Part shown: piece by piece, positions 14,601 through 50,806 of the stretch | Numbering within the stretch: position 1 is the stretch's first letter | Layout of the letters: the number at the start of each line of letters is the position of its first letter | Origin: a virus | Length of the DNA: 59,055 bases | Direction: 5' to 3' (one strand) | IMG/VR virus record: IMGVR_UViG_3300021197_001961 | Span: 1-59,055 of that record | Notes under the pieces: generated by a model | The model's database searches: none | What the model was told of the DNA's origin: nothing | What the model saw: only the letters and a program-made list of their open reading frames with translations | Made by a program: the position numbers and the translations under genes

Positions 14601-17600
14601 TTTTAGCTCGTCATAAGGCTGAATGGAGTTGGGGCTAACGTTATAAAGGTTATTCAATAGGTTACTAGTAAACCCGGTGCGATTATTTGCATAGGTGCTA
14701 TCATATATTGTATCCTGGGTTGTGATGGTCCCATCAGCATTTAAAGCCCTAACTGAAAGTTCTTGTTCGATCGGTGCGTATTTAGAGACCACAACTGATT
14801 CTGTAAAATGGCTAATAGCTCCAAGACGAGGCGCCACAGAACTGGAGCGAACATTCAGCGGATAGTTATAGCTCGCGCCTTCAACATAAGAGATTATGTT
14901 TCGCTTTCTTAGTGCTCGGGCAAGTGCGGACTCTCCAGCCCTTATTTGCTTCCAAGTGTTAACACCATAGGCTCCATTCCTGTGAAGTAGCAGACCGTGG
15001 AGGACCCCTGCCGGGGTCATAGTGCCAATGGCGGTATTTCGATATTCAGAATTAGAAGAGCTGACGATGTTATTGGCTATATCAATGGGATCGACTATCA
15101 ACGTATTTAGGTTTGCAAAGTCAACACTAATCCCCGCGGCGCCAGTGTGGCTAGACGTAACAAAACTAATCGCTTGTTGGAAGCCGCCGCCAGAACTAGA
15201 GACGATGCTATCGTTCCAGGCATGCCCAACAATTCTAGACGTCTGATAGGAGGCTGTGATCCAAGAGTATTGTAGATCGCTTCTTGGGATAGAGTATGAC
15301 ACATTATCATTATCATGCACCGATGCACTCACATAGGAGTGGTTATCAAACCCAGCAATTCCTGAAAACCCTATTCGTTTCAACGAGTTACGATTATTCT
15401 TATGATACGACGGCTGTGTAATATAGTTATCAGCTGTTACTGAGCCATATGTAGCATCGTGACCAAACTGACCCGCATGTAGTGCGCGAAGAGTTCTAAG
15501 ACCTCGTTGCTTATCTAAGTGGTCCATAACCCTAATCGTAGGATTGCTCTCACCGCTGCCGGAACCAAGCACCGATAAGTTTCTGAATGGCAATGCGTTG
15601 TAAACAGACTTCTCAGACGCCGCTAAGTCAAGGTAACCTGCAGAGTTAACCTCCGGACCACCAGGCGCAGAGAACCGATTAACTATAATGTCGGAGTTTC
15701 TACCTCGGTCTGGGACCGAGAAGTTTGTGGAACCACTAAATCGGTTACTAGTTTCGACAGGAGCGGTCTGATGATGTCCGAAGAAGTTTCCACCATTGGC
15801 GGATTGTGGTCTAATACCGATAAGGGAGTTTACATTAGTTGTTGCTGGCAGCGTCGGGTGTCGTAGAACTGTACTCGTAGTGCCGCCGCCGGCAATAAGA
15901 AGGTCTGCAGCTGTCAGGTCCCTAAGCTCCATTCCGTTATCTGCTTGTAGAGCAATGCCAGCCGCATCATTTGAATTGACTTGGTCATTGATTAGCATCT
16001 CAGTATCGCTTGTATCTTCGCCAAATCTCCACCAAGACACAAGGTTAGCCACAGCAGAATGTTCAGTTAGATCTTGAGGACCCTCATTATCACCGGCATT
16101 TCCACGCTCATATATTTCTCCGATTTCGACTGATGTAAGCTTTTTATTCCAATAGCTCGCCTCTGCAGCTGAACCTGAATAGAAAGATGTGTTGTTTGTG
16201 ATAACACCAGAAGAATTGTTCCTTCTGCATAATAAAGTGGAGTCTGAAGCGGGTGTCTCAAAAGTTCCCACCGGTGATGTCGTAAAGGAACCTCCTGCTT
16301 CAACTCCGTTAATATAGAAATTAGCGTCACCATCTCCGTTATTATAAGTCATGGCAAAGTGATTCCATCCGGTGGAACTCCATATAGTTGCATCCGATGT
16401 CCAAATACCATCGGTTGTCGTGTAGCCAAGCTTCAAGATCATCTTATTTGAAGTGTCGATATACATTGCCCTACCAAATGCTGACAAGTTATCGCTACCT
16501 ATTGATATCAAATATCTGTCGGTTGATTGAGCTGTTGCGTTAGAACAAGATAACCACATTGAAAAACTAAATGCTGTGGGGTTATTTAAACTAGTATCGG
16601 TTGAAATCCTATAGCCCGGAGCGCCGGCGGCGCCGAGTGTGCCTGACAAGGCGGTAATTTGCTTTGTGTTTAAATAGTTTATAGCGGTGTATGAGTCGCC
16701 AGAGTGATAGAGTGAAGGCAGTTGTACACCCTCGTTGTCAATGAAATATCTGTTGTTAAGGCTTCTGCCAGTGGTTTGAACAATTTGATAATCTTTGTCG
16801 TAGTTTCCTAGATCAAAAGACGCAGTAGTATGCTTAATATTTCTTATGTTTACTGGTCTCTTCGCAAATTCTTGGCGATAGTATACTGCTTTTTTTCGAC
16901 CGGGTTCGGGATACGGACCAACCGGGTAAGGATACTGTGCTTCTGTTATTCCAATGAATGTGTCGTCAGTTCCGTATTGCGTTCCCAGCAAAATTTGATA
17001 CGCCTCACCGCGAACGTTCTTGTTATCTATCTTGTTGATGGTGGTGCGACTTGACACGTACCTATTGATACTAGCATGTCTGGATTGGTGCCCACCGACG
17101 TGCCTCTCAGTAAACGGTCCCTGCATTGGGATGTCGTTTGAGGCAACTGTCGTATCGGCATGAAGGTTTGTCAACATAGTGCCAGATGAGAAGTTCTCAA
17201 CTACAAGCTTGTTGTATCCGGTGTTGACCGAACTGCTGATTAGATTGAATGGTGACGCTAAGGCACCCTTCATTATCCCAGCATAACCGTCTCTGCCTTG
17301 AGTCTTTGATCCCAACTCTTGGTCTCTTCGGAGAGAAACTTTATATGATAAAAACTTCTTCTCTTTCTCTTCTGGTCCGGAGCCTGTAATGTTTGTCGGC
17401 TGTATCACGTCCGTGTTGTCTATAAGCATCACGTTCAGGGGCGTACCGGAAGCTGCCTGTGGACCCTGTGGGCTTGTGGCGTTTAATACTATATTCCTGT
17501 TTTTAGATGGGGCATAATTAATGCCTCCGTGGATCATTCTTCGCGGAGACGCCTTTTGTTGCTCCGTAACCGCAGAAAAACTATACGCTGCGGATCTTCG

Positions 17601-37504: not shown

Positions 37505-38400
37505 TTGTTCTCCAAGTACCAATTATACGTCTTTTTGATGCCATCTTTAAATTTTGTAAAGTTATATTTTCCAGTCATTTCAATAAGAGCTTTATTGCTA
37601 CCATCTTTTCGATGCTGACCTTCGTAGGATCCGTTAAAAAAGAATTTAACGTCCTTGTTTAAAGATTCTCTAGCAGCATAAGCCATCTCTTTAATTGATA
37701 AATTCTCGTTATTTGCCACAATTAAAGGTATCTCTGTATTGTGCCTTTCCAACAATACCGGAATCAATTCACACAAGTCATCAATGTACAACTGTTGGCG
37801 TAAAGGTGCTCCAGAGCCCCACAGCTCAATTGTGTTTCCGTCATCTGCTTCCGAGATCTTTCGGATTAAAGACGCTACAAAATGAGATGATTCTGGGTCA
37901 TAGTTGTCAGATGGACCATATAAATTAGAAGGACAAAAACTAGAATAATTCAACCCATACTGTTCCCTATATGCAACTGTTTGAGCATGCAAGGCTCTCT
38001 TTGTTATACCATAAGAAAAATTTGTTCTAGCGGGGGGACCGTTGAACAATTCGCTTTCACTAAACGGATACTGACTAACCTGATCTGGGAATGCACAAGT
38101 GCTTAGAGAGCTAAGCACCCTTGGGACGCCTAAGATTGAACTTATATGAATTACATTTGTATTCATCATCGTATTTTGAAAAAAATACTCTGCTTGATTA
38201 TTGGCATTATCTTTAATACCCCCAACCCTAGCAGCCAAGTGAATGATCGCGGAAGGCTTGTGAGAAGAAAAGAACTCTAGAGACTCCTTGAAATCAAGCA
38301 AATTGCAGTCTCTTGAGGAAAGGTATAGCCAATTTGGCTTCACCTTCTTAAGCCTAGTTCCTAGAAAGCCTGTGCCTCCTGTGACTAATACCTCAGCCAT
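37501..38400 (-). CDS. fcl: GDP-L-fucose synthase-like epimerase/reductase
   Basis: Starting at ATG 38400 ([17 protein letters not shown]), the protein is 299 residues; earlier in-frame starts are less likely. It has the GGTGFLG nucleotide loop, then SSLSTCAFP, where C102 is the catalytic cysteine of the S-x-C motif of GDP-fucose synthases, and SYGITKR with Y130 and K134. It would epimerise and reduce the product of the neighbouring Gmd to GDP-L-fucose (or, with other inputs, a related 6-deoxysugar such as 6-deoxyheptose). Its stop overlaps the gmd start by 4 bases, supporting joint expression. Confidence 0.85.
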
Positions 38401-38983
38401 CTGCACCCTTTCGAAGGGGAGAACCACTCATTCTTCTCTTCTCTTGGTCGATTGAAGGGCAGTGATTTCCCGTGCGGTGAATTAGGTCATAAAACAACAT
38501 CATACAAGCTACCTCAACTGTGTGGAAATAATCGCAGTTAAGAGACACCTCATCAACCGAATCCCTTAGAACCCTAGAGTGTTGACCACTTATCATAAAG
38601 GTACTCCAGCCCCTATCTTGTGCCCAGTGAAGTGCGTCGATGACATTCCCAGAGTTTCCCGAGCAAGACATTCCAACAACCAAGCATTCATCTGGGTTTT
38701 CAAAATTTGCCATTGTTTCAAGCCAGCGAACAAAGATCATACCATAACCATGGTCGTTGGCATTGGAAGTTATAAATCCAACACTATCAAATGAATGCAC
38801 AGCCTTGTCGGGTATCAATCTAGATAAGTCTGTTGCCATATGGCTAGATACATAATGCAAACCACCATTTCCAATTAGAAAGATCCTCTTTGCATTTCTT
38901 ACCTTTTCGCAAAGTCGTTCATACTCCTCTGTCGCGACGGCTGTATTGCATTTTTCCTCTATATTTTCAAAATCAATTAACAT
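38393..38983 (-). CDS. SIS-domain phosphosugar isomerase, GmhA-like
   Basis: The 196-residue protein has the SIS signature near its N-terminus (IFLIGNGGLHYVSSHMATDL), followed by LVVGMSCSGNSGNVIDALHW, matching the second phosphosugar-binding loop of GmhA (sedoheptulose-7-phosphate isomerase). GmhA makes D-glycero-D-manno-heptose 7-phosphate for lipopolysaccharide core and for GDP-6-deoxyheptose. The usual GNGGSA turn reads GNGGLH here, so the substrate might differ. It overlaps the fucose synthase by 8 bases. No HldE-like heptose kinase or nucleotidyltransferase lies in the window. Confidence 0.8.
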   Translation of the reverse strand: MLIDFENIEEKCNTAVATEEYERLCEKVRNAKRIFLIGNGGLHYVSSHMATDLSRLIPDKAVHSFDSVGFITSNANDHGYGMIFVRWLETMANFENPDECLVVGMSCSGNSGNVIDALHWAQDRGWSTFMISGQHSRVLRDSVDEVSLNCDYFHTVEVACMMLFYDLIHRTGNHCPSIDQEKRRMSGSPLRKGADG

Positions 38984-38987
38984 CGGC

Positions 38988-40157
38988 TTACCTCTTTCTG
39001 ATTGATTGCTTTATTATTTCAACGGCATTGCACAATTCACTATGTGTTAGAGCTAGATTGGGTCTTAGCCTCACGGCTGTAGATCCAGCTACATTGCATA
39101 TAAGACCGTTCCTTTTCATCTCCTGCAGAGTGTTGTCTCTAGCTGATGCAGATGGCAAATCAAAGCCAACGATCAATCCCTTATTTCTTAAGTTGTGTAT
39201 GTTTTTAATTTTTGACAACTCACTAATAAGCTCATTTGCCATATTGTTTACATTTTCTAGTATATCATATTTTTTGTATGCTTTTATTATGTATTTACAC
39301 CTAATCATATCCAAGACATCAGCATCCCAAGTAACTTCAAGCTTGGTTCGCCTTTCTTTAGAGAAGATCTCTCCAAACTTCTCCTTGACCATAATTCCTG
39401 ATAGTTGGGTCTTCTTTCCGAATACAACTAAATCTGGCTGCAACCCTAGATGTTCAAAATGCCACAATTTTCCTGTTCCGCCAAAGCCAATTTGTATCTC
39501 GTCATGTATTACTGGAATGTTATGAAGATTTGCTGTCTCCTGAAGGTCTCGAAAGAATTCAACTTTATGGTGTATATCGCCAGAACTACATTGTATAGGT
39601 TCCACCAAAATACAGGTGATATTATTGTCGCGGACAGCCTCAAGAACCTGTTGTAAATTCATATCTATTTTAATAGAAAAAGGTTGTGGCAGGTTTTCTA
39701 GCTTCTTGCTTGCAGGATAAAATTTAGACGTAGTGAATCCACCATATCCGTTAACTCCGTGAAAGCTGTTGTTAAACGATAGAACCTTTATGTTTTGATG
39801 CCCTTTGTGCTCAGCGCAGGTCTTAATAGCCGCCTCAACTGCCAGAGCCCCCGTGCAAGAGTAGTGAAAAAACTTATAAATTCCCTTTCCGGCGTATTTT
39901 TTAAAAAGATCGTCAAACTCCAATGTTTCGTCTGAAACGAATTCACAATTATTTATTTTGAAACTACTCGCTCTTAAGATCTCATCACGAAATTCTTGTG
40001 TCTTAAAGATACCATGATTATACCCGAGGGGTAGAGAGGCGTACATACCAAAGAAATCCAAATACTCTCTATCTGTGTTTTTATCATAAAGGTATGAGTC
40101 GTGGCTCTTCTCAAAATCAACACATATGTTAAACCTGCTGTTGTTGGCGATTCCCAT
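38988..40157 (-). CDS. Class III PLP-dependent aminotransferase
   Basis: A 389-residue protein of usual length for class III enzymes. It has a CTGALAVEAAIK cofactor loop, IPVIHDEIQIGFGGTGKLW with the PLP-contacting D219, and FGKKTQLSG, where K248 or K249 forms the Schiff base, a pattern I associate with the L-lysine aminotransferase subgroup. It would use glutamate or a similar donor to aminate a ketone or aldehyde. In this cassette it is likely to act on a sugar or cyclitol keto intermediate. Class III enzymes are less usual in sugar nucleotide pathways than the DegT family, which makes the substrate uncertain. The start is TAATG-coupled to the cyclase. Confidence 0.8.
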   Translation of the reverse strand: MGIANNSRFNICVDFEKSHDSYLYDKNTDREYLDFFGMYASLPLGYNHGIFKTQEFRDEILRASSFKINNCEFVSDETLEFDDLFKKYAGKGIYKFFHYSCTGALAVEAAIKTCAEHKGHQNIKVLSFNNSFHGVNGYGGFTTSKFYPASKKLENLPQPFSIKIDMNLQQVLEAVRDNNITCILVEPIQCSSGDIHHKVEFFRDLQETANLHNIPVIHDEIQIGFGGTGKLWHFEHLGLQPDLVVFGKKTQLSGIMVKEKFGEIFSKERRTKLEVTWDADVLDMIRCKYIIKAYKKYDILENVNNMANELISELSKIKNIHNLRNKGLIVGFDLPSASARDNTLQEMKRNGLICNVAGSTAVRLRPNLALTHSELCNAVEIIKQSIRKR

Positions 40158-41200
40158 TATTTCTCCATATATTCTTTGATAAAGTTCTTTATCATGTCCA
40201 GATCATCAATTCTAGTAACTCTCATATCTCCCGCCCCATAAGGAAGAATACAAACCAGTGAATCATCAATGTTTTTCTTATCCCTAGCTAGCAGGGCAAA
40301 ATATCCCTGGAGCAAGTCTTGGGGCAGGCGGTATGTTGGCAGATTATGTTTCAAAGACTGGTGCAGTGTATCAAACACCTGTTTATCAATAAGCCCCATC
40401 CTTAATGAAATATAGTTTGCTAAGTCCATACCCAATGTTACTGCAATACCATGACTAATCTCATATTTGGTTATCGCTTCGATGGCGTGACCAAAGGTAT
40501 GCCCATAATTAAAAATTCGTCGCTCGTCTTTATCAAATTCATCTCTCTGTATCATATGCCTCTTTATTTCAAGGCTTTCAAGAATAAATTTTTCTAACCT
40601 AACATCTGGCTCCATTAAGATTTTTTTATATGAGTTGTTTAGTTCCTGCACTATATCACTGTCATCGATAAGAAAGTAATGCAACATCTCTCCAATGCCT
40701 GATTTGATATCGTCCTTACTTAAGGTGCTTAAAAAATCTGTGCAACAGTGAATCTCCCTGGGTGGGTGGAACGTTCCTAATAAATTCTTTGTTCCCTGAA
40801 AATTTATAGAGGTTTTGCTTCCTATACAACTATCCGCTTGGGCTAGAAGGGTTGTTGGCAAGAAAGTCCAATCTACACCCCGATAAAGCACAGAGGCGGT
40901 GAAAGCTGTAATATCTTGAACTATACCGCCGCCTACGGCGACTAGCCTATGGTTTCTTTTAAAACCCTTCTCTACTAGCAGGTTAACCAATCCGCTACAT
41001 GTCTTCAGCGTTTTAGCCTCTTCAGAAGCCATTACAACGAAAGTATTATCACTAGAAAACATCCTGCCAAAGATGGGATACAACCTATAGACATTCGAGT
41101 CAATCACCAAAAAAGATTTACTAGCCAAGCTTCCTACGAGCTTCTCGGTTAGATCAGAGAATTGAAATGTGTATTCCCCTCTATAAGAATGTATCTTCAT
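40157..41200 (-). CDS. 3-dehydroquinate synthase-like sugar phosphate cyclase
   Basis: The 347 residues match the dehydroquinate synthase fold: NAD-binding GGGIVQDITAF (90-100), DWTFLPTTLLAQADSCIGSK, the metal ligand E171, H234 in FNYGHTFGHAIE, and H250 in SHGIAVTLGMD (metal E/H/H). After E171 the DHQ-synthase lysine (E-x-x-K) is replaced by His174 (EMLHYFL), so this is probably not a shikimate enzyme. Relatives act on heptulose or hexose phosphates (2-epi-5-epi-valiolone, 2-deoxy-scyllo-inosose). With GmhA-like, transketolase and aminotransferase genes nearby, a C7 sugar or aminocyclitol product is suspected. The actual substrate is not known. Confidence 0.8.
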   Translation of the reverse strand: MKIHSYRGEYTFQFSDLTEKLVGSLASKSFLVIDSNVYRLYPIFGRMFSSDNTFVVMASEEAKTLKTCSGLVNLLVEKGFKRNHRLVAVGGGIVQDITAFTASVLYRGVDWTFLPTTLLAQADSCIGSKTSINFQGTKNLLGTFHPPREIHCCTDFLSTLSKDDIKSGIGEMLHYFLIDDSDIVQELNNSYKKILMEPDVRLEKFILESLEIKRHMIQRDEFDKDERRIFNYGHTFGHAIEAITKYEISHGIAVTLGMDLANYISLRMGLIDKQVFDTLHQSLKHNLPTYRLPQDLLQGYFALLARDKKNIDDSLVCILPYGAGDMRVTRIDDLDMIKNFIKEYMEK

Positions 41201-41201
41201 A

Positions 41202-41924
41202 TTATATGCTTACGAAACCTCCGTCGACTACTATATTTTGCCCTGATATATAGGAATTGTGCTCACTTGCTAGAAACAGAATGACTTTAGAAATTTCTTC
41301 TGGTTCTGCCATTCTTTTAGCTGGAATCTTGTGGGTCAGCTCTTGTATCTTTTCGGTTGTTAGAATCTTCTTTGTTAAATCTGTTAGAGTAAACCCCGGA
41401 GACACTGTGTTGATCAGTACGTTGTATTCTGCCAGCTCTGCTGCTGCTGCCAAGGACATTCCACGTAAACCAAACTTGCTAGATGAATAGCTGGCGCGCT
41501 GGGGTGTGCTTATGGTGCCCCAAATGGAAGAGACGTTGATTACCCTACCATACATCTTAGCTATCATAGATTTGCTTACCGCTTGCTGGATAAGGAACGG
41601 CACAGTTAGGTTTACTCTTATTATGTCTTCCCAGTCGCCTATGTCAATCTCGCAGAAGGGATCTATTTTATTGATCCCGGCGTTGTTTACACAAATATCA
41701 AATTGTTGTGTCTTCAGATATTTAATAAACTTATCAGTTGCATCCTGATTGAGAAAATTAACAGCTATAAATTCTATATTCTTGTGAAGATGGGCGGGCG
41801 ACGAGGACGTCCCCGTTATAACGACCTCTGCACCAAGATTAGCCATGTCGTTAGCTACCTGATAGCCAATGCCGCGGGTGCCACCTGTTACCAAAACCCG
41901 CTTGTTTTTAAAATCAACTTTCAC
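41202..41924 (-). CDS. Short-chain dehydrogenase/reductase (SDR)
   Basis: A classical 240-residue SDR with TGGTRGIGYQ (13-22), NNAG (80-83), catalytic S133, Y146 and K150 in YSSSK, and a C-terminal SGQNIVVDGG tail. It would reduce or oxidise a hydroxyl or keto group with NAD(P). The GTG at 41924 follows the CMP-transferase's stop by 3 bases with AAGG upstream. In this operon the likely substrate is the cyclised or aminated sugar of the neighbouring genes. FabG-like proteins are common, and no specific reaction can be assigned from sequence. Confidence 0.9.
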   Translation of the reverse strand: MKVDFKNKRVLVTGGTRGIGYQVANDMANLGAEVVITGTSSSPAHLHKNIEFIAVNFLNQDATDKFIKYLKTQQFDICVNNAGINKIDPFCEIDIGDWEDIIRVNLTVPFLIQQAVSKSMIAKMYGRVINVSSIWGTISTPQRASYSSSKFGLRGMSLAAAAELAEYNVLINTVSPGFTLTDLTKKILTTEKIQELTHKIPAKRMAEPEEISKVILFLASEHNSYISGQNIVVDGGFVSI

Positions 41925-41927
41925 ACC

Positions 41928-43064
41928 TTATTCCTTATAGATGTGTGGAACGTCTTCTCTGCTGACAGCCAATCTAATAGCTGGCTTGTCGCCAACAGCT
42001 GTAATATGATGCATCTTTCCTTTTGGTATAAAGACAATATCATCTTTGCCCACGATGACTTTCTTGCCTTCGATATCCCATTCCCACTGCCCATCAACGA
42101 TATACCACCACTCATTCCAGTTTGGGTGATAGTGGTTCCTATTGCCTTCGCCGGGTTGCTGGTGTATCAGCGTTGCGCTATTGTTTTCGGTATTAACAAC
42201 TCTCTTTGACCAAGAAGCTTTAGGGTCAAAGCTAGAGATAATATTGTTGACGTTCACGGGGGTTTCACTATTGGCGGAGGCGAGGTCATTGACCAACACA
42301 CCATCCATCTTCAGAATGCTGGGAACATCTACCTCGACGCGCTCGGCTGTATCTTCATAATACCTAATATCAAATTTTTCTTTTGTGCTCAAATGCCGCG
42401 CGACGACCTCTGCTAGTTGAAAATCTTCCTCATTATCAATATCTATATTAGAGTATCCAGATAAAGTATAGAATCCAATGTTTCCGTCTCCTCCATGATA
42501 GCCGCTGTTGTATTTAGCCATGTTGTCTTTATAGTTTTGGCTTGACCAAGCCATCAGACCGCAGGCATATGCGTTAACTGGCGTGAGTAGCTGAGATGGT
42601 GGTGATTGCCTCTTTTGATCGAAATTTATTGGCTCAGTGCCGTATATGCATTCTATCTTATTTTCGTTAACGGATATAAGCGTATCATATCCACCCTGCA
42701 TAAAATGATCGGTAAAGCCTCTTATTTCCTCCGGTGTGATAAACGGGGACGTTGCCAGCACTTGAACAAGGTTATCACACCCGGTGCTCTCAACAAAGTC
42801 CAGTGTAAAATCATCGTTTGTTGCGTCATCTGTGGTAAGGTGCTCAGATCTTTTGTAGAACTTCACACCCTCTTTGATAGCAAGTTCACCGATAATATCT
42901 GATTCTGAGTTAACATAGATCTCATCAAAACAGTCAGCGCTTTTGGCTGCTCTTATGATATAACTTATCAGCGGAACGTTGTTTAATAATCTTATGTTTT
43001 TTCTTGGTATGCGCTTGCTTCCCAGACGAGCTGGGATCATTGCGACTACTTTTTGCTTTTTCAC
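41928..43064 (-). CDS. CMP-sugar synthetase (NeuA/KdsB-like) fused to a cupin domain
   Basis: The N-terminal 225 residues have the nucleotide-binding loop AMIPARLGSKRIPRKN (8-23) and FVESTGCDNLVQVLATSPF, as in N-acylneuraminate cytidylyltransferases. Residues about 285-378 form a cupin: HYHPNWNEWWYIVDG (H311, H313, E318) and IPKGKMHHITAVGD (H352/H353). The first part would charge an acid sugar with CTP. The cupin could isomerise, bind or protect the sugar. The fusion is unusual. GTG at 43064 overlaps the previous stop (GTGA). No NeuB condensing enzyme is visible in the window, so the acid sugar source is unknown. Kdo is an alternative. Confidence 0.8.
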   Translation of the reverse strand: MKKQKVVAMIPARLGSKRIPRKNIRLLNNVPLISYIIRAAKSADCFDEIYVNSESDIIGELAIKEGVKFYKRSEHLTTDDATNDDFTLDFVESTGCDNLVQVLATSPFITPEEIRGFTDHFMQGGYDTLISVNENKIECIYGTEPINFDQKRQSPPSQLLTPVNAYACGLMAWSSQNYKDNMAKYNSGYHGGDGNIGFYTLSGYSNIDIDNEEDFQLAEVVARHLSTKEKFDIRYYEDTAERVEVDVPSILKMDGVLVNDLASANSETPVNVNNIISSFDPKASWSKRVVNTENNSATLIHQQPGEGNRNHYHPNWNEWWYIVDGQWEWDIEGKKVIVGKDDIVFIPKGKMHHITAVGDKPAIRLAVSREDVPHIYKE

Positions 43065-44113
43065 TTTTTAGTCTCTTCAACCCATTTTACAGAATCTTGA
43101 AAATTTTCAATCAGGTAATCGTCAAGCGTCAGCTTTCTTAAATAATGATACTTGATCATTCTATGAAAATAATCAATCTGAGGCTCTTGTTGGTGGATGT
43201 CCATTCTCAAAGAGTCGGGGGTTGGTTGCCTATCCTCTGTTGTTGAGAAACCATTCTGCTTCAGTGCCTCATCATGATATTTATTATAATATACTTTTCC
43301 GAAAGTGTTCATGTTAAAAAAGGACATTCCGGTTACGTAAACCTCTTCAATATCATAATTTAAGAGGGTCATTACTCCTGTTAGTCCCGTGTTAACAACA
43401 GTGCCCACCTCGTTAAACAGTTTTAACACCCACCCATCACAAGCATTGTGCCAAGGTCTTCCCGTGCTTTCTAAAAAATCATCAACGCGACCAATATCCC
43501 ACATGGAGACTTGAGGGCAAACAATATACTGAAGAGCTTCCAAGAAACTTATTTCGTATGGAGGTTCCCTCACATCTCTAGTTTCCTCAAGGGCTTTGAG
43601 TTTGTTTATATTTAAACAGCTCATCAAAATATCTGTTCTTCTACCATAATCCTCCCAATCCTCCTCGCTCATATGATAATTTTGGTTAACTCTGACCACT
43701 AGATCATATGAGTCTATTTTTTTACCCATTTTCTTGCCACGAAGGTGTGGTGATGGGCACACATAGGCTATCCTCTTTCCCTTTACCAATTCAGCGAGTT
43801 GCTCATCGTAATTGTAATCTGTGTAGTTACTAACAAGGGTTCTGTCCGCAGCCATCCTAGTGCCAGAAAATTGCCTTAGTTGCGCAAAAGATTGCTCTGG
43901 TGGAGGGGAGGATGACCTCCACCTTGGCGTGTTTGCTTGAATTGGGATTCCAAAAATGTCAGGCTTCGTATCCAAGTACCAATTTGCCATATACCTATAA
44001 TCTTTCTCTCGTTTATATTCTGTTTTATTATTTTTTAAAAAATTTGCAGCCAAATTGTTAAAGTTATCATATTCATAGTCCTGTTTGGACGTCATCATTC
44101 CCGGCTTTTTCAC
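43061..44113 (-). CDS. GT29 sialyltransferase-like glycosyltransferase
   Basis: The protein has an L-motif-like stretch (residues 114-145, RIAYVCPSPHLRGKK then IDSYDLVVRVNQ) and an S-motif-like stretch (239-266, VVNTGLTGVMTLLNY, YVTGMSFF) with H280 following. This is the pattern of GT29 sialyltransferases, which move sialic-type acid sugars from CMP donors. It follows the predicted pairing with the CMP-sugar synthetase next door. The start is uncertain: the first in-frame codon is GTG at 44113, with ATGs at 44098 and 44095. No signal peptide or membrane segment is seen, unlike eukaryotic relatives. Confidence 0.72.
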   Translation of the reverse strand: MKKPGMMTSKQDYEYDNFNNLAANFLKNNKTEYKREKDYRYMANWYLDTKPDIFGIPIQANTPRWRSSSPPPEQSFAQLRQFSGTRMAADRTLVSNYTDYNYDEQLAELVKGKRIAYVCPSPHLRGKKMGKKIDSYDLVVRVNQNYHMSEEDWEDYGRRTDILMSCLNINKLKALEETRDVREPPYEISFLEALQYIVCPQVSMWDIGRVDDFLESTGRPWHNACDGWVLKLFNEVGTVVNTGLTGVMTLLNYDIEEVYVTGMSFFNMNTFGKVYYNKYHDEALKQNGFSTTEDRQPTPDSLRMDIHQQEPQIDYFHRMIKYHYLRKLTLDDYLIENFQDSVKWVEETKK

Positions 44114-44127
44114 CTTTGAGTCCCAGT

Positions 44128-45846
44128 TTATTGAATCAGTGGCAACGTTACTTTACTTTCGTATTTTATGTCGCCCTCATCGGCGTCAGCATCATATGAT
44201 ATTGAATTAATTCTCTCTTCATATTGCTTAAGCTTGATGTTATCCGCCTTCACTTGATTATCATATGCTTCCATAAATCTCTTTTTTTCTTTGATATTAA
44301 AAAATTCGGCATATTGCTTAAACAACGCTTTAATAATAAATTTTTCAGTTGTCTTCGAGATCTGAGGGAGCATGTTTTTTGGCTCCTTTTGCAGAGCATT
44401 CTGCACAATCTTAGACACTAGTCCAGTGGAGTTTATAGCTTCTCCCATTATCTCAAGGAATCCGCTCAAGTGGTGAAGATCTGAATATCGTAAGATTTCT
44501 GGCATCAGCTTTCTCTGAGCAAGGAAACCGTCCGGAGTAAAGAACTTAGTCAGTGAAATACTTTGCCTAATTTCCTCTTTCCACTCAAATAATTGATCAT
44601 ACGAGTGGGCGCCTCCATTTTCAGTTGTATAATATGGCACTCCCTTGTCTGTAAGCCAGTAATCATCATCGATCTTACCAGTTGCCTTAGCCATCGTATA
44701 CATTTCAGTACCAGGATAAATCATTGCCAAGCCCATTTCATCATAAAAGATATAGTGAAGCTTCTGTAGTTCCTGAACAAAGTCTATTGTTTCTTTAATC
44801 GTCTCCTGCGTTTCGCCAGGAAGACCAGAGATTAGGAAGGCTGTTGCTTTGATTTTAGTTTTGGCGATCAACGAGAGGGCATAGCGAGCGTGCTCTTTTG
44901 TGATACCCTTCTTCATACCCTTCTGAACTGCATCAGCACCACTCTCCAAGCCAAACAAAACGTGAACAAACCCAGCTTGCTCCATTTTATTGACAACCTC
45001 TGGGGATATTGGTCTAAATCTAGCGCTAGCAACAAACTTTGTTTTAATCCCTCGCTCTATGATCGCATCACAAAATTCAATAGTTCTCTTCTTGTTGATC
45101 ATAAACGCATCATCGTGAATCCATATGGTATCTACAGTTGGACACTGCTCTAGCAATTGTTCAACCTCATCGGCAATATTCTCTCCTGATCGAAATCGCA
45201 CTTTGCGACGTGACATCGCATCGAGAACACAAAAATTACACTTATAGGGGCAGCCGCGACTTGTTAAAAGGTTCGCCATAGTTTTTCCCTCATACAGAAA
45301 TATATCGTGACGAGGAAATGGTAGCATATCCAAATCTTTAATCAAAGGGCGTCCTCCGGTAAATTTAACCTTGTTATCCTTCCAATAGGCAAGACCCAGA
45401 ACGTCTTCGTGAGATTCTCCAGATTCAAAGCAGCTAATCAATTCATTAAAGGTAACCTCCCCTTCGCCTTGAACCACAATGACGTAAGGGTATTTTTCCA
45501 CAAACTGCTTCCACATAACAGTAACGTGCATTCCGCCGGTTACAATCTTGATATTCGGATATGTTTCGTGAACATATTCAATAATTCTATATGCACTCAC
45601 ACGAGAGTGAGTCATTAAAGACACCCCAAGCACGTCAGGTTGAAATCTTTCGAGACTTTCTTTAATTTCTGAAAAGCATTGCTCGTAGGGCACGTTATTC
45701 AAATATAAGTTTTCGAATTCGTGCTGCGGGCTCTGTTGCTCAACATAGGATTGTAGATAAGCCAGTCCTAGTGGATAGTGACTATCGTGGTTGTCCTCGC
45801 TTCGGTGAGCATCTTCAATGGTTGTGCAGCAAAGTAAAATCTTCAT
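44128..45846 (-). CDS. Radical SAM enzyme with B12-binding domain
   Basis: Residues 1-160 form a cobalamin-binding domain typical of this class (SLMTHSRVSAYRIIEYVH, IVTGGMHVTVM). The radical SAM cluster follows, with C199, C203 and C206 in SRGCPYKCNFC and GLESGADAVQKGM later. The enzyme is 572 residues, in the usual range. Class B radical SAM enzymes often C-methylate or remodel sugars, natural products and tetrapyrroles. Here it lies between two sugar modules, so a sugar modification is likely. An AGGAG ribosome site precedes the ATG and a promoter-like core is 22 bases upstream. The substrate is unknown. Confidence 0.88.
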   Translation of the reverse strand: MKILLCCTTIEDAHRSEDNHDSHYPLGLAYLQSYVEQQSPQHEFENLYLNNVPYEQCFSEIKESLERFQPDVLGVSLMTHSRVSAYRIIEYVHETYPNIKIVTGGMHVTVMWKQFVEKYPYVIVVQGEGEVTFNELISCFESGESHEDVLGLAYWKDNKVKFTGGRPLIKDLDMLPFPRHDIFLYEGKTMANLLTSRGCPYKCNFCVLDAMSRRKVRFRSGENIADEVEQLLEQCPTVDTIWIHDDAFMINKKRTIEFCDAIIERGIKTKFVASARFRPISPEVVNKMEQAGFVHVLFGLESGADAVQKGMKKGITKEHARYALSLIAKTKIKATAFLISGLPGETQETIKETIDFVQELQKLHYIFYDEMGLAMIYPGTEMYTMAKATGKIDDDYWLTDKGVPYYTTENGGAHSYDQLFEWKEEIRQSISLTKFFTPDGFLAQRKLMPEILRYSDLHHLSGFLEIMGEAINSTGLVSKIVQNALQKEPKNMLPQISKTTEKFIIKALFKQYAEFFNIKEKKRFMEAYDNQVKADNIKLKQYEERINSISYDADADEGDIKYESKVTLPLIQ

Positions 45847-45877: not shown

Positions 45878-46828
45878 TTACCATATAAAATTTTCCTTAT
45901 AATATAAGACTATAGACTGTATCTCATTATCAAAAAGCTTTTTTGGCTCCCAGCCCAGACCACGTAGTTTTGTATCGTCAAGTGCATAACGAACATCTTG
46001 ACCAACACGAGAATATGAAAAATCTAAGTATCTCTCAACACGGTCAATATTACCATAGTAGTGCCTGATGATCTTCTTTACTGTGTCAATGTTTTGCTGC
46101 TCGAACCCGCCGGCGACGTTGTAGACCTCATTCGTAGCACCCGAATCAACAATCGCCATAACAGCTGCAGCAGTATCGTCGGCATGTAACCAATTTCTAT
46201 ATGGGGTACCATCATTGTGAAGTCTGATCTTCTTTCCTCTCATAAGGTTTTTAACAGAAAGGGGGATCAACTTCTCTGGATACTGACCAATTCCATAATT
46301 GTTGGTAGGTCGTAAAATATTATAATTCAACCCATAAGTTCTAGCCCAAGCAAAGATTAACATATCCCCGGCTGCCTTTGATGCTGAATATGGGTTGCTT
46401 GGCTTAAGAATATCTTCTTCTGTGTGGGTGCCTTGTGTAATATCTCCGTATACCTCATCTGTGCTAATATGCAGTAAAATGGGTCTACTGTTACAGTTTT
46501 CCTGTTTACCTCTGATTAATTCTAAGAGATTCTTTACTCCCAAGATGTTTGTATTTATGAATTCGTCACTGCTTACGATGCTGTTGCCGACGTGTGATTC
46601 TGCAGCGTAGTTAATAACATAGTCGCAGTCATAGAGGTGTTTTAAGTTTTTGATGTCGACTGCTTCAAACTTAAAGTTGTCATACCTTTTAAATTCCTCT
46701 AGCAATTTTGGATTGGCTGCATAAGTTAGCTTATCAACCCCGTATACCATCCAGCCTCGGTCTAGGCACCTTCTGGTTGCATAAGCACCCATAAAGCCTA
46801 AACATCCCGTGATATAAACTATTTTCAC
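45878..46828 (-). CDS. RmlB-like NDP-glucose 4,6-dehydratase
   Basis: The 316-residue protein has an NAD loop with GCLGFMGAY (8-16), ISTDEVYGD with T123, D124 and E125, YSASK (Y147, K151), and RPTNNYGIGQYPEKLIP, all standard for dTDP-glucose 4,6-dehydratase. It would make a 4-keto-6-deoxyglucose nucleotide. The start is GTG at 46828, overlapping the previous stop as GTGA, with GAGGGA 6 bases ahead. It sits directly after the 3-dehydrase, so its product probably feeds a 3,6-dideoxy pathway. In such pathways the nucleotide is usually CDP, so dTDP versus CDP cannot be decided. No RmlA/RfbF enzyme is seen. Confidence 0.88.
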   Translation of the reverse strand: MKIVYITGCLGFMGAYATRRCLDRGWMVYGVDKLTYAANPKLLEEFKRYDNFKFEAVDIKNLKHLYDCDYVINYAAESHVGNSIVSSDEFINTNILGVKNLLELIRGKQENCNSRPILLHISTDEVYGDITQGTHTEEDILKPSNPYSASKAAGDMLIFAWARTYGLNYNILRPTNNYGIGQYPEKLIPLSVKNLMRGKKIRLHNDGTPYRNWLHADDTAAAVMAIVDSGATNEVYNVAGGFEQQNIDTVKKIIRHYYGNIDRVERYLDFSYSRVGQDVRYALDDTKLRGLGWEPKKLFDNEIQSIVLYYKENFIW

Positions 46829-48156
46829 TTTAATCCCTCAAAGAATTCCTTAACAGTTTGCTCAATATAGTCGAGCTTGTCGTCAGTGAGACCAATGAAG
46901 GTTCCAAGGAAGAATGAATTTGTTGTGACCAGTTGAGCAATGGGGAAGGTTTCATTCATATCTCCATATTCTGATGCCATATGATAATAGCCCGGATGCG
47001 CAAGAATATTGCCAGAAAAGTAAGACCGCGTTTGAATTTTGTGCTTTTCTAGCCAGGAAACCATATCTTGTCGCCCAAATGGTGCGTCCTCCTTGACAGT
47101 CATCAAAAACGCAAACCAGCAGGGATCAGCCTTCTCAGTTGCCTTTGGAAGATGAAGATATTCGACATAAGGTTCAAAGATCTTCATTAGACGATCAAAA
47201 TTCTTTCGACGAGCAGCATCAAATTCAGGTAATTTCTCTAACTGCTGAAGACCCATTGCTGCCTGCATATCTAATGGCTTAAGATTGTACCCAATCTCCT
47301 CAAAAACATAGCGATGGTCATAGACGGCTTCTCGCAGCCCTGGGAGCCAATCGCGGAACCTGTTACCACAAGCAGTTCCTTCGAGCACAGAACCCGGCTT
47401 AGAGGTGTTACAATAGCATGCACGACCCCAATCTCGAATACTAGCCACTGCTGTTCGGATTTTATTATCGTTTGTTGCCACAAAGCCACCCTCACCCATT
47501 GTCATATGGTGAGCTGGGAAGAAAGAGCAAGTGGAGATGTGACCAAAAGACCCTAATTTCTTACCATCATAGGTGGAGCCAAGTGCGTCACAGGAGTCCT
47601 CAACAAAAATAAGATCATACTTTTCAACAAGACCCATCAGACGATCCATGTCGGGTGGGTTCCCTAGAACATGAGCAAACACGATACCCTTGATCTCAGG
47701 ATCGCTCTCTAAGGCTCTCTCAACTTGATCTAGGTCTAAGTTGAGGTCAGGTAGCGTTACATCCACGAAGACCGGCTGAAAGCCGTTCTGGATGATGGGG
47801 TTGATAGTTGTGGGGAAACAGACAACCGGGGTAATAAGCTTTGAACCCTCTTTGAGGTTATAAAGTCGTTTTGATTTAAGGGCAGAGATCGCCAATAGGT
47901 TAGCTGAGCTTCCTGAATTAGTTAAAGAGCCATACTTCATTCCCAAGTGTTCGGGGAATTGTTTTTCAAACTGGCGCGCATTCTTTCCGAAAATAAGCCA
48001 CCCAGAAAGCAGCTGCTTTACCGCGGCAACGTATTCTTCTCCATCGAACATTGGTCCCGAGTATGCTACCCAGTCCTTGCCGGGAGCCCAATCCTTCTTG
48101 GTCTCCTCTACGTGTTTTCTTACTAACTCTTCGATCTGCTCCAAAGTGTCAGACAT
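46825..48156 (-). CDS. rfbH: RfbH-type NDP-4-keto-6-deoxyhexose 3-dehydrase (PLP/[2Fe-2S])
   Basis: The 443-residue protein is a DegT-family enzyme in which the Schiff-base lysine is replaced by histidine: H216 in FFPAHHMTMGEGG. The [2Fe-2S] ligands of this enzyme class are also present: C189 (EDSCDALGS), C247 and C249 (GRACYCN), and C263 (TACGNRF). The C189-C247 spacing and the C-x-C match E1 of the CDP-ascarylose pathway. The last gap is longer than the usual X7. This enzyme removes the C3 hydroxyl of a 4-keto-6-deoxy sugar nucleotide to give 3,6-dideoxy sugars; it needs a flavin/Fe-S reductase partner that I do not see here. It has GGAGG 8 bases upstream of the ATG. Confidence 0.88.
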   Translation of the reverse strand: MSDTLEQIEELVRKHVEETKKDWAPGKDWVAYSGPMFDGEEYVAAVKQLLSGWLIFGKNARQFEKQFPEHLGMKYGSLTNSGSSANLLAISALKSKRLYNLKEGSKLITPVVCFPTTINPIIQNGFQPVFVDVTLPDLNLDLDQVERALESDPEIKGIVFAHVLGNPPDMDRLMGLVEKYDLIFVEDSCDALGSTYDGKKLGSFGHISTCSFFPAHHMTMGEGGFVATNDNKIRTAVASIRDWGRACYCNTSKPGSVLEGTACGNRFRDWLPGLREAVYDHRYVFEEIGYNLKPLDMQAAMGLQQLEKLPEFDAARRKNFDRLMKIFEPYVEYLHLPKATEKADPCWFAFLMTVKEDAPFGRQDMVSWLEKHKIQTRSYFSGNILAHPGYYHMASEYGDMNETFPIAQLVTTNSFFLGTFIGLTDDKLDYIEQTVKEFFEGLK

Positions 48157-48974
48157 TTTTGTATTCCTCCTTCAACACCTAAAAGGTCCAAGTTTAAACC
48201 TTGCAACCCCTGGCTATTACCCGTGTAGGGTTTACCATTATTTGGATTCTCTATGATAACATCATTTTTACTTTTTGTGAAATTTTTAACCATTATTGCA
48301 ATATCATGGAGAGTTATTTTTTGATCATAACACACGTTGATATCCTTGGGCAATTCCCTGTCAGAAGATAGATAAAATTTCAATATACGGCAAAGATCGC
48401 CCACAAAGATATAATCCATCTCTTTGTTCTGATGAATGAAAGCATCCTGTCCGGACATTAGCTTAGTATAACAACTCTTAATAAGTCTTTGAGGGTTTTC
48501 ACGAGGTCCAAAGCACCCAAATAGCCGAAAATTAACTATATTTTGATAATTATCAAAAATATTTCTAGCAATTAGATTCTTCACAAGACCATAATAATCT
48601 TGCGGAAGTCTTTCAAATAACTCTTCTTCTGACACTTTGTCTATCACACCTGAACGATCAAACTCCGCGCCGGATCCAAAATTAATCATGAGTTTGAACT
48701 TATCAGAGTGCGATGCGAGGTTCTGAAACATTGAGATATTTTCAAAGAATGCAGATATATCATCCTTATCTAACCGCTTTCCACCATTAATCGCAGTATG
48801 AACGACGTAGTCTATGCGGTTCTCCGAAAAAAAGTTATCCACCTGTTGGCGGTCGGACACATCTAATGTGCTTCTGTTTGTGGAGATAATCTCAAACTTA
48901 TTGCTTTTTTTAAATTCGGAGTAGATCTCTCTGGCGATAAAGCCGTTACCTCCGGTCAACAATATTCTTTCCAC
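48123..48974 (-). CDS. NAD-dependent epimerase/reductase (extended SDR)
   Basis: GTG at 48974 is taken as the start because it overlaps the previous stop (TAGTG) and gives the expected N-terminus (VERILLTGGNGFIAREIY), about 283 residues. A longer in-frame start exists. It has the GGNGFIA loop, INFGSGAEFDRS and a YYGLVKNL active site (Y-x-x-x-K). A C-terminal substrate domain has VNFRLFGCFGPRENPQ, as in sugar nucleotide reductases and epimerases. It lies between the split transketolase and the 3-dehydrase, so it may reduce the 4-keto group of the same deoxysugar. The substrate cannot be told from sequence. Confidence 0.82.
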   Translation of the reverse strand: MERILLTGGNGFIAREIYSEFKKSNKFEIISTNRSTLDVSDRQQVDNFFSENRIDYVVHTAINGGKRLDKDDISAFFENISMFQNLASHSDKFKLMINFGSGAEFDRSGVIDKVSEEELFERLPQDYYGLVKNLIARNIFDNYQNIVNFRLFGCFGPRENPQRLIKSCYTKLMSGQDAFIHQNKEMDYIFVGDLCRILKFYLSSDRELPKDINVCYDQKITLHDIAIMVKNFTKSKNDVIIENPNNGKPYTGNSQGLQGLNLDLLGVEGGIQKCLTLWSRSKS

Positions 48975-49450
48975 TATCGCACCAAGTTTAGGTAGGAGGG
49001 TTTGCCGTTTTCCACAAGAGTGTCCAAGATACATCTAAGCTCCTCTTCCTGCTCTGGATGGTACACGTCAATGTTATCGAAGCAGTCCATAATTCTTCGA
49101 TCGTCCTCAGCCCAGTGGGTGAACCCAAGTTTCCCGTAGTCTCTATCCCTACCACCGCCGATAAGCTTGACGGGAATTTGTTCGTGATCCAGATAATTTC
49201 TAATAAATTCAAAGGGTCGATATAGAAGGAACGGGGTTATAGAATACACAAATGGGATCTTGCCTTCCATAGCCATACCGCTGGCTGCGCCAAGCATAAG
49301 TTGCTCGGAGGAGCCTACGTTCCGAAAGCGTCTTGGAAAGTCTAATCGAATTTTGTCCCACAATCCATATCCCAGATCACCGGTTAAGACCACGATGCGA
49401 GGATCAACACTCATCTTCTCGTGTAATAACTGACTAAATGCTTTTCTCAC
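48974..49450 (-). CDS. Transketolase-like pyrimidine-binding half (split transketolase, subunit 2)
   Basis: GTG at 49450 is chosen over an earlier in-frame start because GGAGG lies 6 bases before it, within the end of the upstream gene. The 158 residues resemble the middle (Pyr) domain of transketolase and DXS: VVLTGDLGYGLWDKIR, NVGSSEQLMLGAASGMAM with the Glu that activates thiamine diphosphate, and KLIGGGRDRDYGKLGFTHWAEDD. The C-terminal domain of full transketolase is absent. With the neighbouring TPP domain protein it would form a heteromeric thiamine-dependent enzyme. Confidence 0.82.
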   Translation of the reverse strand: MRKAFSQLLHEKMSVDPRIVVLTGDLGYGLWDKIRLDFPRRFRNVGSSEQLMLGAASGMAMEGKIPFVYSITPFLLYRPFEFIRNYLDHEQIPVKLIGGGRDRDYGKLGFTHWAEDDRRIMDCFDNIDVYHPEQEEELRCILDTLVENGKPSYLNLVR

Positions 49451-50084
49451 TTGCGTCCTCCAACATTGATACCGCTTGTTTGTAGTCATGCTCTTTCATA
49501 ATATGATAATGTGCGTTTAAGCCTCGTAAGAATGGGAAATGATTAACATCGCTGTGTAAGATATTCACACCCGGTAGGAATGCGCGAAGACGTCTTTCTA
49601 GATACTGTTCGTCAACAGCGTCATATGCTGCATACCCGTTGAGGTTGGCGTATATTCGAATGTTCTCCACCCTATTCTCGTGAATGAACTTTAAGGACTC
49701 CCACACAACGCCCTCGGCGCTCTCGCCATCGCTAATCAGACAATGAACCGTTACATCAGGGCGCGCTAATGCTCTGCCAACGGCTACTGAGATACCCATT
49801 CCGAGACTACCAGTGGAGCAATAGATCTTATCGTTGTCGTCCCTGTGAGGGTGTCCGCCATGCTTATTAAACAAGTATTCAGCATCGATGCCGTGGTATT
49901 TTTCTAATACAGCATAGAGTGCTAGCGCGGCGTGTCCACAAGAGAGGATAAATATGTCATCGTCGCCCATAACTGAAAAAATGTTATCGACTATATCCAA
50001 ACAAGAGAAATAACTTCCCAAGTGAGACAAGTTGTTCTTATAAGCAATGTCGAGGACCCTTCGCTTGAGTATTAAGTCTTCCAT
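49434..50084 (-). CDS. Transketolase-like thiamine diphosphate-binding half (split transketolase, subunit 1)
   Basis: The 216-residue protein covers the transketolase PP domain: NNLSHLGSYFSCLDIVDNIF, FILSCGHAALALYAVL, STGSLGMGISVAVGRAL, and SDGESAEGVVWESLKFIHEN with the thiamine/Mg motif (GDG written as SDG, followed by N...NGYAAYD). It should act with the following 158-residue gene. A two-carbon transfer from a ketose is its expected chemistry. The location, directly before a reductase and an RfbH-type dehydrase, suggests that its acceptor may be a keto-deoxysugar, giving a branched sugar. A role in making sedoheptulose phosphate for the cyclase is the alternative. Confidence 0.85.
   Translation of the reverse strand: MEDLILKRRVLDIAYKNNLSHLGSYFSCLDIVDNIFSVMGDDDIFILSCGHAALALYAVLEKYHGIDAEYLFNKHGGHPHRDDNDKIYCSTGSLGMGISVAVGRALARPDVTVHCLISDGESAEGVVWESLKFIHENRVENIRIYANLNGYAAYDAVDEQYLERRLRAFLPGVNILHSDVNHFPFLRGLNAHYHIMKEHDYKQAVSMLEDASEKSI
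49457..49461 (-). promoter_or_regulatory. Ribosome binding site deciding the GTG start of the second transketolase half
   Basis: GGAGG on the coding strand, 6 bases before GTG 49450, inside the last codons of the first half (in the LEDAS segment). It supports the shorter start and suggests balanced production of both halves. Confidence 0.6.
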
Positions 50085-50806
50085 TTAGTTCCCCAGTGTT
50101 CTTGTATCATAGCATCGTAATTAATTTGCTCTTTTTGAACTTTCCAGGTTGCTTGGTCTTCGTGCCAGCGATAATAGAATCCTAGCCAGAAAGGCGCCGG
50201 ATATATAAACACCCCGCTGTCGGCTAGTTGGCAATACAGATCATAGTCGGCAGCGCCGCCATATTTCTCTGGGTTTGTCTTTAACAAACCATCCCTAAAA
50301 AGAGAAGTGTTGTACATGACTGTTGGAGTGTTTACCGGGCACCTCTCTAGGCACTCCTCCTTGAATTCTTGTATGCTCTTGTAAGAATGGGCTATTGTGC
50401 TCGTGACTCTACCAGTATTCGAATGTATGCCCGTTATTGGACTTTGCATGGCAAGAATATCACTTGGTCTTGCTTTGAAGAACTTCATATTATTTGCAAT
50501 AAAGTCTTTATGCAGAAAGTCGTCAGAACCCATCACCAGCACATAGTCCCCCGTCATTAGCTTGAAACCTTGAGACCGAGGCTCATCCCAACAATTGGGA
50601 TACACATTCTTCGCAGACGACAAGATAAGGTCTGGGTATTCTTCTTTTACTTTCTCTGCGATTGCCACACTATTGTCGGTGCTCTCATTATCAACAAAAA
50701 TAACCTCAGTGTTATCATATGTTTGTGATAAAGCTGTGACTAATGCTTGTTCAATCCACTTCTCACTATTGTAGCACGGAATGATTATTGAAGCTCTAGG
50801 ATTCAT
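50072..50806 (-). CDS. Glycosyltransferase family 2
   Basis: The 244-residue GT-A protein has ASIIIPCYNSEKWIEQALVT (5-24), VIFVDNESTDNS (35-46) and VMGSDDFLHKDFI, whose SDD at 94-96 serves as the metal-binding DxD. It would add a sugar from a nucleotide donor to a growing glycan. Its stop lies inside the next gene (13-base overlap). Family 2 covers many specificities, so donor and acceptor cannot be stated. No membrane segment is seen, so it is likely cytoplasmic. Confidence 0.9.
   Translation of the reverse strand: MNPRASIIIPCYNSEKWIEQALVTALSQTYDNTEVIFVDNESTDNSVAIAEKVKEEYPDLILSSAKNVYPNCWDEPRSQGFKLMTGDYVLVMGSDDFLHKDFIANNMKFFKARPSDILAMQSPITGIHSNTGRVTSTIAHSYKSIQEFKEECLERCPVNTPTVMYNTSLFRDGLLKTNPEKYGGAADYDLYCQLADSGVFIYPAPFWLGFYYRWHEDQATWKVQKEQINYDAMIQEHWGTKWKT

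Follow-up and report, generated by a model that had tools for sequence, protein, structure and literature searches.

The window analysed here, the whole 59,055-base stretch of IMG/VR record IMGVR_UViG_3300021197_001961, derives from an uncultured marine tailed virus and carries tailed-virus baseplate and PhoH genes together with a block of sugar genes on its minus strand. This block contains an overlapping run, GT2-TKN-TKP-RED-RfbH-RmlB (Table 1), in which TKN and TKP are the two halves of a split transketolase (TK) and RED is a reductase of the short-chain dehydrogenase/reductase (SDR) type; genes for a 4-keto-3,6-dideoxy sugar are thereby clustered with a thiamine diphosphate (ThDP) enzyme. 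We consider it quite probable that the run specifies a virus-encoded pathway to a C4-branched 3,6-dideoxy sugar, with the split TK as the branching enzyme.

Domain matches and coordinates agree with the preliminary description of this DNA, which had listed a thiamine-binding half and a Pyr half without the third transketolase domain, a reductase, a 3-dehydrase and a 4,6-dehydratase in one overlapping run. The interval given there, 46825-50084, holds the four genes TKN, TKP, RED and RfbH, while the RmlB-like gene lies just outside it. When the first ATG of each frame is taken as its start, the overlaps amount to 13 bases (GT2/TKN), 56 (TKN/TKP), 61 (TKP/RED), 34 (RED/RfbH) and 4 (RfbH/RmlB). 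The true start of TKP is probably a GTG at 49450, which stands behind a GGAGG, matches the start of the homologues and would give a protein of 158 amino acids, and RED probably begins at a GTG at 48974, with one base in common with the TKP stop.

Table 1. Genes of the overlapping run, with coordinates in the window and the matches on which their names rest
Gene	Product	Coordinates	Strand	Match
TKN	ThDP (PP) domain half of minimal split transketolase	49434..50084	-	Transketolase_N, E 1.1e-7
TKP	Pyr domain half of the split transketolase	48974..49489	-	Transket_pyr, E 2e-19
RED	Extended SDR (NAD epimerase/RmlD-type)	48123..49034	-	Epimerase/RmlD_sub_bind
RfbH	Pyridoxamine 5'-phosphate (PMP)/[2Fe-2S] 4-keto-6-deoxyhexose 3-dehydrase	46825..48156	-	NF011936, 476 bits (cut-off 423)
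RmlB	RmlB-like nucleoside diphosphate (NDP)-hexose 4,6-dehydratase	45878..46828	-	TIGR01181, 302.7 bits (below the 365 cut-off)
GT2	Family 2 glycosyltransferase	50072..50806	-	Glycos_transf_2, E 2.2e-25

Residues of the split transketolase and the dehydrase

TKN of the window is 216 amino acids long, the two chains encoded by the viral and bacterial operons measuring about 206 and 158 residues, and according to the Pfam domain matches the third (C-terminal) transketolase domain is absent from both TKN and TKP. Binding of ThDP needs the PP and Pyr domains only and not the third domain (PMC7661550), and we therefore call the pair a minimal, transketolase-type enzyme. AlphaFold2 models of the chains (predicted local distance difference test, pLDDT, 92.8 for TKN and 85.9 for TKP) find their best fold matches in 6yak and 6yaj, respectively, the two chains of the solved split transketolase of Carboxydothermus hydrogenoformans, which also ranks top among solved structures in profile searches with both halves. 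The catalytic residues are common to the two enzymes; in contrast to the viral pair, the C. hydrogenoformans enzyme retains the third domain (PMC7661550), and the viral enzyme sits among sugar-nucleotide genes.

The catalytic residues are intact in the viral proteins. The PP and Pyr domains carry the Mg/ThDP motif and the catalytic Glu (Asp155, Asn185 and Glu411) in all aligned viral sequences, the equivalents of E. coli TktA His26, His66, His100, Asp155, Asn185 and His261 are kept in all 25 TKN sequences, and those of Glu411 and His473 in all 22 TKP sequences. His100 of transketolase is replaced by Phe in the pyruvate-using DXS enzymes (PMC7661550), and its retention here suggests that the donor is hydroxylated and the branch glycoloyl. 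On the acceptor side, the alignment places aliphatic, non-polar residues at the positions of Ser385 and Asp469, the Arg91 partner of Asp469 is missing, and the His461 equivalent is lost; acceptors that are non-polar and carry no phosphate are used by E. coli transketolase mutants at 385 and 469 (PMC5073344). A change of Asp469 to Leu held in our first set as a marker for RfbH-linked TKs and was dropped, as many unlinked split TKs also have Leu.

The closest solved relative of the window's RfbH is the Y. pseudotuberculosis dehydrase E1 (3bcx), in which Cys193, 251, 253 and 261 hold the cluster and His220 is the dehydrase residue. RfbH His216 aligns with this histidine, which replaces the lysine that would hold pyridoxal 5'-phosphate (PLP) (motif FPAHHMTMGEGG), and all four [2Fe-2S] cysteines are kept as Cys189, Cys247, Cys249 and Cys263, the last aligned by proximity across a gap. 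No ferredoxin-reductase domain that would mark the partner reductase E3 (DdhD/AscD) appeared among the sugar-block proteins scanned, in a record that is a fragment; with no dedicated E3 gene seen, a host reductase would supply the electrons. The RmlB-like gene scores only 67.9 bits with TIGR02622, the model for cytidine diphosphate (CDP)-glucose dehydratase. Because the 4,6-dehydratase is RmlB-like, the acceptor is more likely linked to deoxythymidine diphosphate (dTDP) than to CDP, which, of the CDP- and dTDP-4-keto-deoxyhexoses named in the preliminary description, favours the second. In RED, the SDR residues Ser121, Tyr148 and Lys152 are invariant in 41 homologues.

An exchangeable place beside RED, RfbH and RmlB

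Relatives of TKP at 50-69% identity occur in 20 IMG/VR loci (L followed by a number is a locus label of this analysis). TKN adjoins TKP in almost every viral locus that covers both, and most of these loci carry RED, RfbH and RmlB in the order seen in the window, a recurrence that takes the grouping remarked on in the preliminary description beyond chance. Among isolated phages no close TKP was found, the best being about 35% identical, and RfbH reached up to 42% only; Salmonella AGRM01000002, considered as a phage relative, was rejected, since it is a contig of bacterial origin whose chromosomal split TK is unrelated.

RfbH is common in viruses, and 80 viral loci were taken. GT2 is the conserved left neighbour of the place in question and holds the same position in relatives; in loci that lack TKN-TKP, the stretch between GT2 and RED-RfbH-RmlB usually carries another ThDP enzyme. 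One such alternative, about 590 residues long, contains all three domains of thiamine pyrophosphate (TPP) enzymes. Among solved structures it comes closest to JanthE, a YerE-like enzyme joining keto acids to ketones, and often a PanB-like gene comes after its gene or an HpcH-like aldolase gene stands with it. The other comprises two paired proteins of about 202 and 179 residues, relatives of E1 alpha and E1 beta of pyruvate dehydrogenase. According to a 2025 review, three ThDP superfamilies make or are proposed to make tertiary alcohols of sugars, namely YerE-like decarboxylases, alpha-keto-acid dehydrogenases 2 and transketolases (PMC12247030), and all three are found at the place beside RED-RfbH-RmlB. 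RED homologues adjoin each of the three enzyme types (TK, YerE-like and E1-like), and RED is a probable branch-ketone reductase.

For the viral count, loci were dereplicated at 95% RfbH identity and had to include no less than 6 kb of upstream and 3 kb of downstream sequence, which left 56. A ThDP carboligase-type enzyme is present in 52 of them (24 TK, 23 YerE-like and 5 E1), versus 3 of the 43 full-length viral Gmd loci without RfbH that served as control (Fisher p = 1.6e-19, a value that overstates independence because the loci are related). When the three enzyme labels are mapped on a tree of 75 RfbH proteins, they require at least 26 changes and are scattered like shuffled labels. Two loci capture the replacement itself: in L035 and L037 the DNA of the glycosyltransferase ahead of the block is 95.5% identical and that of RfbH-RmlB behind it 96.4%, and between these flanks L035 carries HpcH-like and YerE-like genes and L037 carries TKN-TKP.

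Exchange beside a constant core is what would be expected if the three enzyme types carried out equivalent steps on a common acceptor, and the place probably represents an interchangeable step in the making of branched sugars. We lean, on balance, towards a general arrangement in which the reductase-RfbH-RmlB core of marine tailed viruses stays constant and carboligases of three ThDP superfamilies replace one another at one place, some of them with a PanB- or HpcH-like donor-making gene, so that the exchange alone would alter the sugar branch; no transketolase before the TK form would have been shown to work on a ketone sugar. The exchange of three carboligase types at a single place in virus genomes is the broader and more novel point of this work.

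PanB-like or HpcH/HpaI-like genes accompany YerE-like slot enzymes at L030:6224-7156, L048:6228-7163, L023:3946-4773 and L035:4113-4922, and their products could make a hydroxylated keto-acid donor; ErwE has been reported to favour 4-hydroxy-2-oxo acids (PMC12247030). Transaldolase-like genes occur at L029:12304-12996 and in L206 (S-H68) at 16447-17097, in clusters with RfbH and no ThDP enzyme detected, and perhaps serve another carbon-chain step.

Other dehydrases and cellular relatives

TK loci without RfbH mostly carry a different DegT protein that has His at the PLP-lysine position and is therefore a dehydrase rather than an aminotransferase. Such a His-type protein is present in 19 of 24 TK loci, none of which has a Lys-type one; the corresponding figures are 52 and 4 for 80 loci with E1 pairs, and 5 and 6 for 72 control loci. 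The His-type proteins of L010-L012 and L015 are without the cluster cysteines, and that of L007 is ColD-like. Minimal pairs resembling E1 alpha and E1 beta are widespread in viral sugar clusters (163 hits; L352-L428, with the pair near 8001-9100), where many adjoin ColD-like His-type dehydrases rather than RfbH; these clusters are probably further branched-sugar systems, acting on guanosine diphosphate (GDP)-linked or other sugars.

Pairing of RfbH with a split TK extends to bacteria. In the Pseudomonadota locus L304 the order RfbF-RfbG-RfbH-TKN-TKP is uninterrupted, and L307 and L337 also combine RfbH with TK (RfbF and RfbG in cellular loci are named from sequence, without curated models). 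Among 385 alphaproteobacterial genomes RfbH was found in 20 at the threshold used, with a split TK within about 8 kb in 3 of the 20 loci and a YerE-like enzyme in 9. Outside the viral clade, the cellular TKs linked to RfbH fall into at least two groups, and the pairing therefore probably arose more than once. A lack of homologous operons with RfbH, named in the preliminary description as counter-evidence, is not what is seen: such operons occur in viruses and in cellular genomes alike.

Five further Pseudomonadota loci (L305, L308, L311, L312 and L314) combine RfbF-RfbG with a split TK and have no RfbH nearby; a TK branching of a 4-keto-6-deoxy sugar that retains its 3-hydroxyl is possible there. 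A Pelagibacteraceae single cell (L118) has the order RfbF-RfbG-His-type dehydrase-TKN-TKP-reductase, and its contig holds a second minimal TK pair (L118:1042-2261) with His at the Asp469 position, similar pairs being present in L120-L125. Patescibacteria (L107-L111, L115 and L116) have minimal TK pairs in envelope-type clusters, with TKP 50-56% identical to that of the window; no dehydrase accompanies these pairs, and in some a methyltransferase gene adjoins. Two candidates were rejected: contigs of metagenome-assembled genomes (L103, L105 and L106) taken as cellular homologues contain this viral cassette and are probably viral sequences that ended up in the bins, and the alphaproteobacterial His-type DegT protein without iron-sulphur cysteines is not a general TK partner, as a TK or YerE-like enzyme stood in 0 of 11 further loci.

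A predicted branching pathway and its alternatives

In the pathway that we infer, including its substrates, order of steps, product, nucleotide, stereochemistry and recipient glycan, the RmlB-like enzyme would form NDP-4-keto-6-deoxyglucose, from which RfbH, with electrons from the host reductase, would take off the 3-hydroxyl to give NDP-4-keto-3,6-dideoxyglucose. Holding ThDP between them, TKN and TKP would then work as a minimal transketolase of two chains and, with a ketose phosphate or hydroxypyruvate as donor, place a two-carbon ketol unit on the C4 ketone, yielding a tertiary alcohol with a glycoloyl branch. Reduction of the branch ketone by RED would produce a 1,2-dihydroxyethyl group and thus an NDP-3,6-dideoxy-4-C-(1,2-dihydroxyethyl)hexose, a sugar that nearby glycosyltransferases would install. 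Judged from the genes, ketol addition to C4 of NDP-4-keto-3,6-dideoxyhexose by the split TK, with subsequent reduction by RED, is the most likely function of these proteins. A thiamine-dependent branching of the RfbH product by a transketolase-type enzyme, as first suggested for this locus, would account for the exchange, the association with RfbH and the independent recurrence, all of which support it. The analogies to yersiniose and avilamycin drawn at the same time also hold up, in that a YerE-like enzyme or an E1-like pair occupies the place of the TK in related viruses.

In the yersiniose A pathway (RfbF, RfbG and RfbH with YerE, whose relatives include ErwE and JanthE), RfbH likewise makes a 4-keto-3,6-dideoxy sugar and a ThDP enzyme puts a carbon unit on the C4 ketone (PMC12247030), and the slot enzyme of sister viruses is YerE/JanthE-like. 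However, YerE is a single-chain decarboxylase of pyruvate or other keto acids, whereas the two-chain transketolase of the window would bring hydroxyacetyl, and the 4,6-dehydratase of the window is RmlB-like and not RfbG-like. For miharamycin and amipurimycin of Streptomyces, it has been proposed that a split transketolase attaches hydroxyacetyl to a keto-sugar (PMC12247030), but all 13 reported sequences belong to Streptomyces secondary metabolism, with no description of one beside RfbH, in a cluster of polysaccharide type or in a virus. The alpha-keto-acid dehydrogenase 2 enzymes of the aldgamycin, kibdelomycin and avilamycin class are also two-chain ThDP enzymes that place a C2 unit onto keto-sugars (PMC12247030), and some relatives have minimal E1-like pairs where the window has the TK; the pair of the window, by family and fold, is of transketolase type and not of E1 type. 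TK addition to a keto-sugar has so far been proposed for the two Streptomyces antibiotics (PMC12247030), rfbH alone has been named among viral metabolic genes (PMC10653327), and in the open-access literature we found no paper joining transketolase, CDP-glucose and O-antigen.

Several points weigh against assigning the branching step to the split TK. Pairs of the same TK clade occur without a dehydrase in the fetched stretch (L009, L019, L020 and the Patescibacteria), some of the 52 counted ThDP enzymes lie several kb away from RfbH, four full-length RfbH loci (L029, L031, L091 and L094) have no ThDP enzyme, and the change at Asp469 is not confined to RfbH-linked TKs. The support is genomic in kind, and the 2025 review describes in vitro proof of a TK acting on any ketone sugar as pending (PMC12247030). 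An arrangement such as RmlB-TKN-TKP-RED with no dehydrase in reach, found in some viral loci (L009), would also suit a split TK that branches a 4-keto sugar other than the RfbH product, be it the 4-keto-6-deoxy sugar of RmlB or at another carbon, with RfbH serving a parallel second sugar; the bacterial RfbF-RfbG clusters with TK and no nearby RfbH fit this as well. We hold it to be unlikely, given that viral RfbH nearly always occurs with a ThDP enzyme, that TK loci without RfbH mostly carry another His-type dehydrase, and that the 3,6-dideoxy-4-keto sugar is the reported substrate of YerE (PMC12247030).

The chemistry of a transketolase is the parent function here and its donor-site residues are all in place, as they would be in an ordinary auxiliary metabolic gene that serves host pentose phosphate metabolism and has come to lie in the sugar block by chance. 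This is very improbable: the TK swaps with YerE-like and E1-like enzymes beside RED-RfbH-RmlB, its reading frames overlap those of sugar-block genes, and the equivalents of Ser385, His461 and Asp469, which serve phosphorylated acceptors, are lost. Still harder to credit is that the split TK supplies a ketose phosphate precursor to the AroB-like cyclase module of the window (40157-41200 and neighbours). The module shares the window with the TK and is expected to take a sugar phosphate as its substrate (TIGR04425), but it is found without TK or RfbH in L345-L348 and with a YerE-like enzyme replacing TK in L343, and it is absent from most TK loci; as module and TK occur apart, we rejected this role.

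If the split TK is indeed the branching enzyme, it would open a new biocatalytic route to functionalised tertiary alcohols, and exchange of a single catalytic module would let viruses diversify their sugar chemistry, which bears on phage self-decoration or on changes of host surfaces. With compact enzymes, a predicted acceptor and sister operons that hold known enzyme types, the question of TK branching is directly testable.

Two further parts of the window deserve mention. A separate module at 38393-44113 encodes a GT29-like protein, a cytidylyltransferase-cupin fusion, an SDR, the AroB-like cyclase (above the TIGR04425 cut-off), a class III aminotransferase and a SIS protein, a set that suggests an unusual cytidine monophosphate (CMP)-linked sugar or a cyclitol. 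At 44128-45846, after RmlB, lies a gene for a B12-binding radical SAM protein that only some relatives share (L002, L016, L028, L033, L035, L038 and L086) and that is possibly a C-methyltransferase acting on the same sugar.

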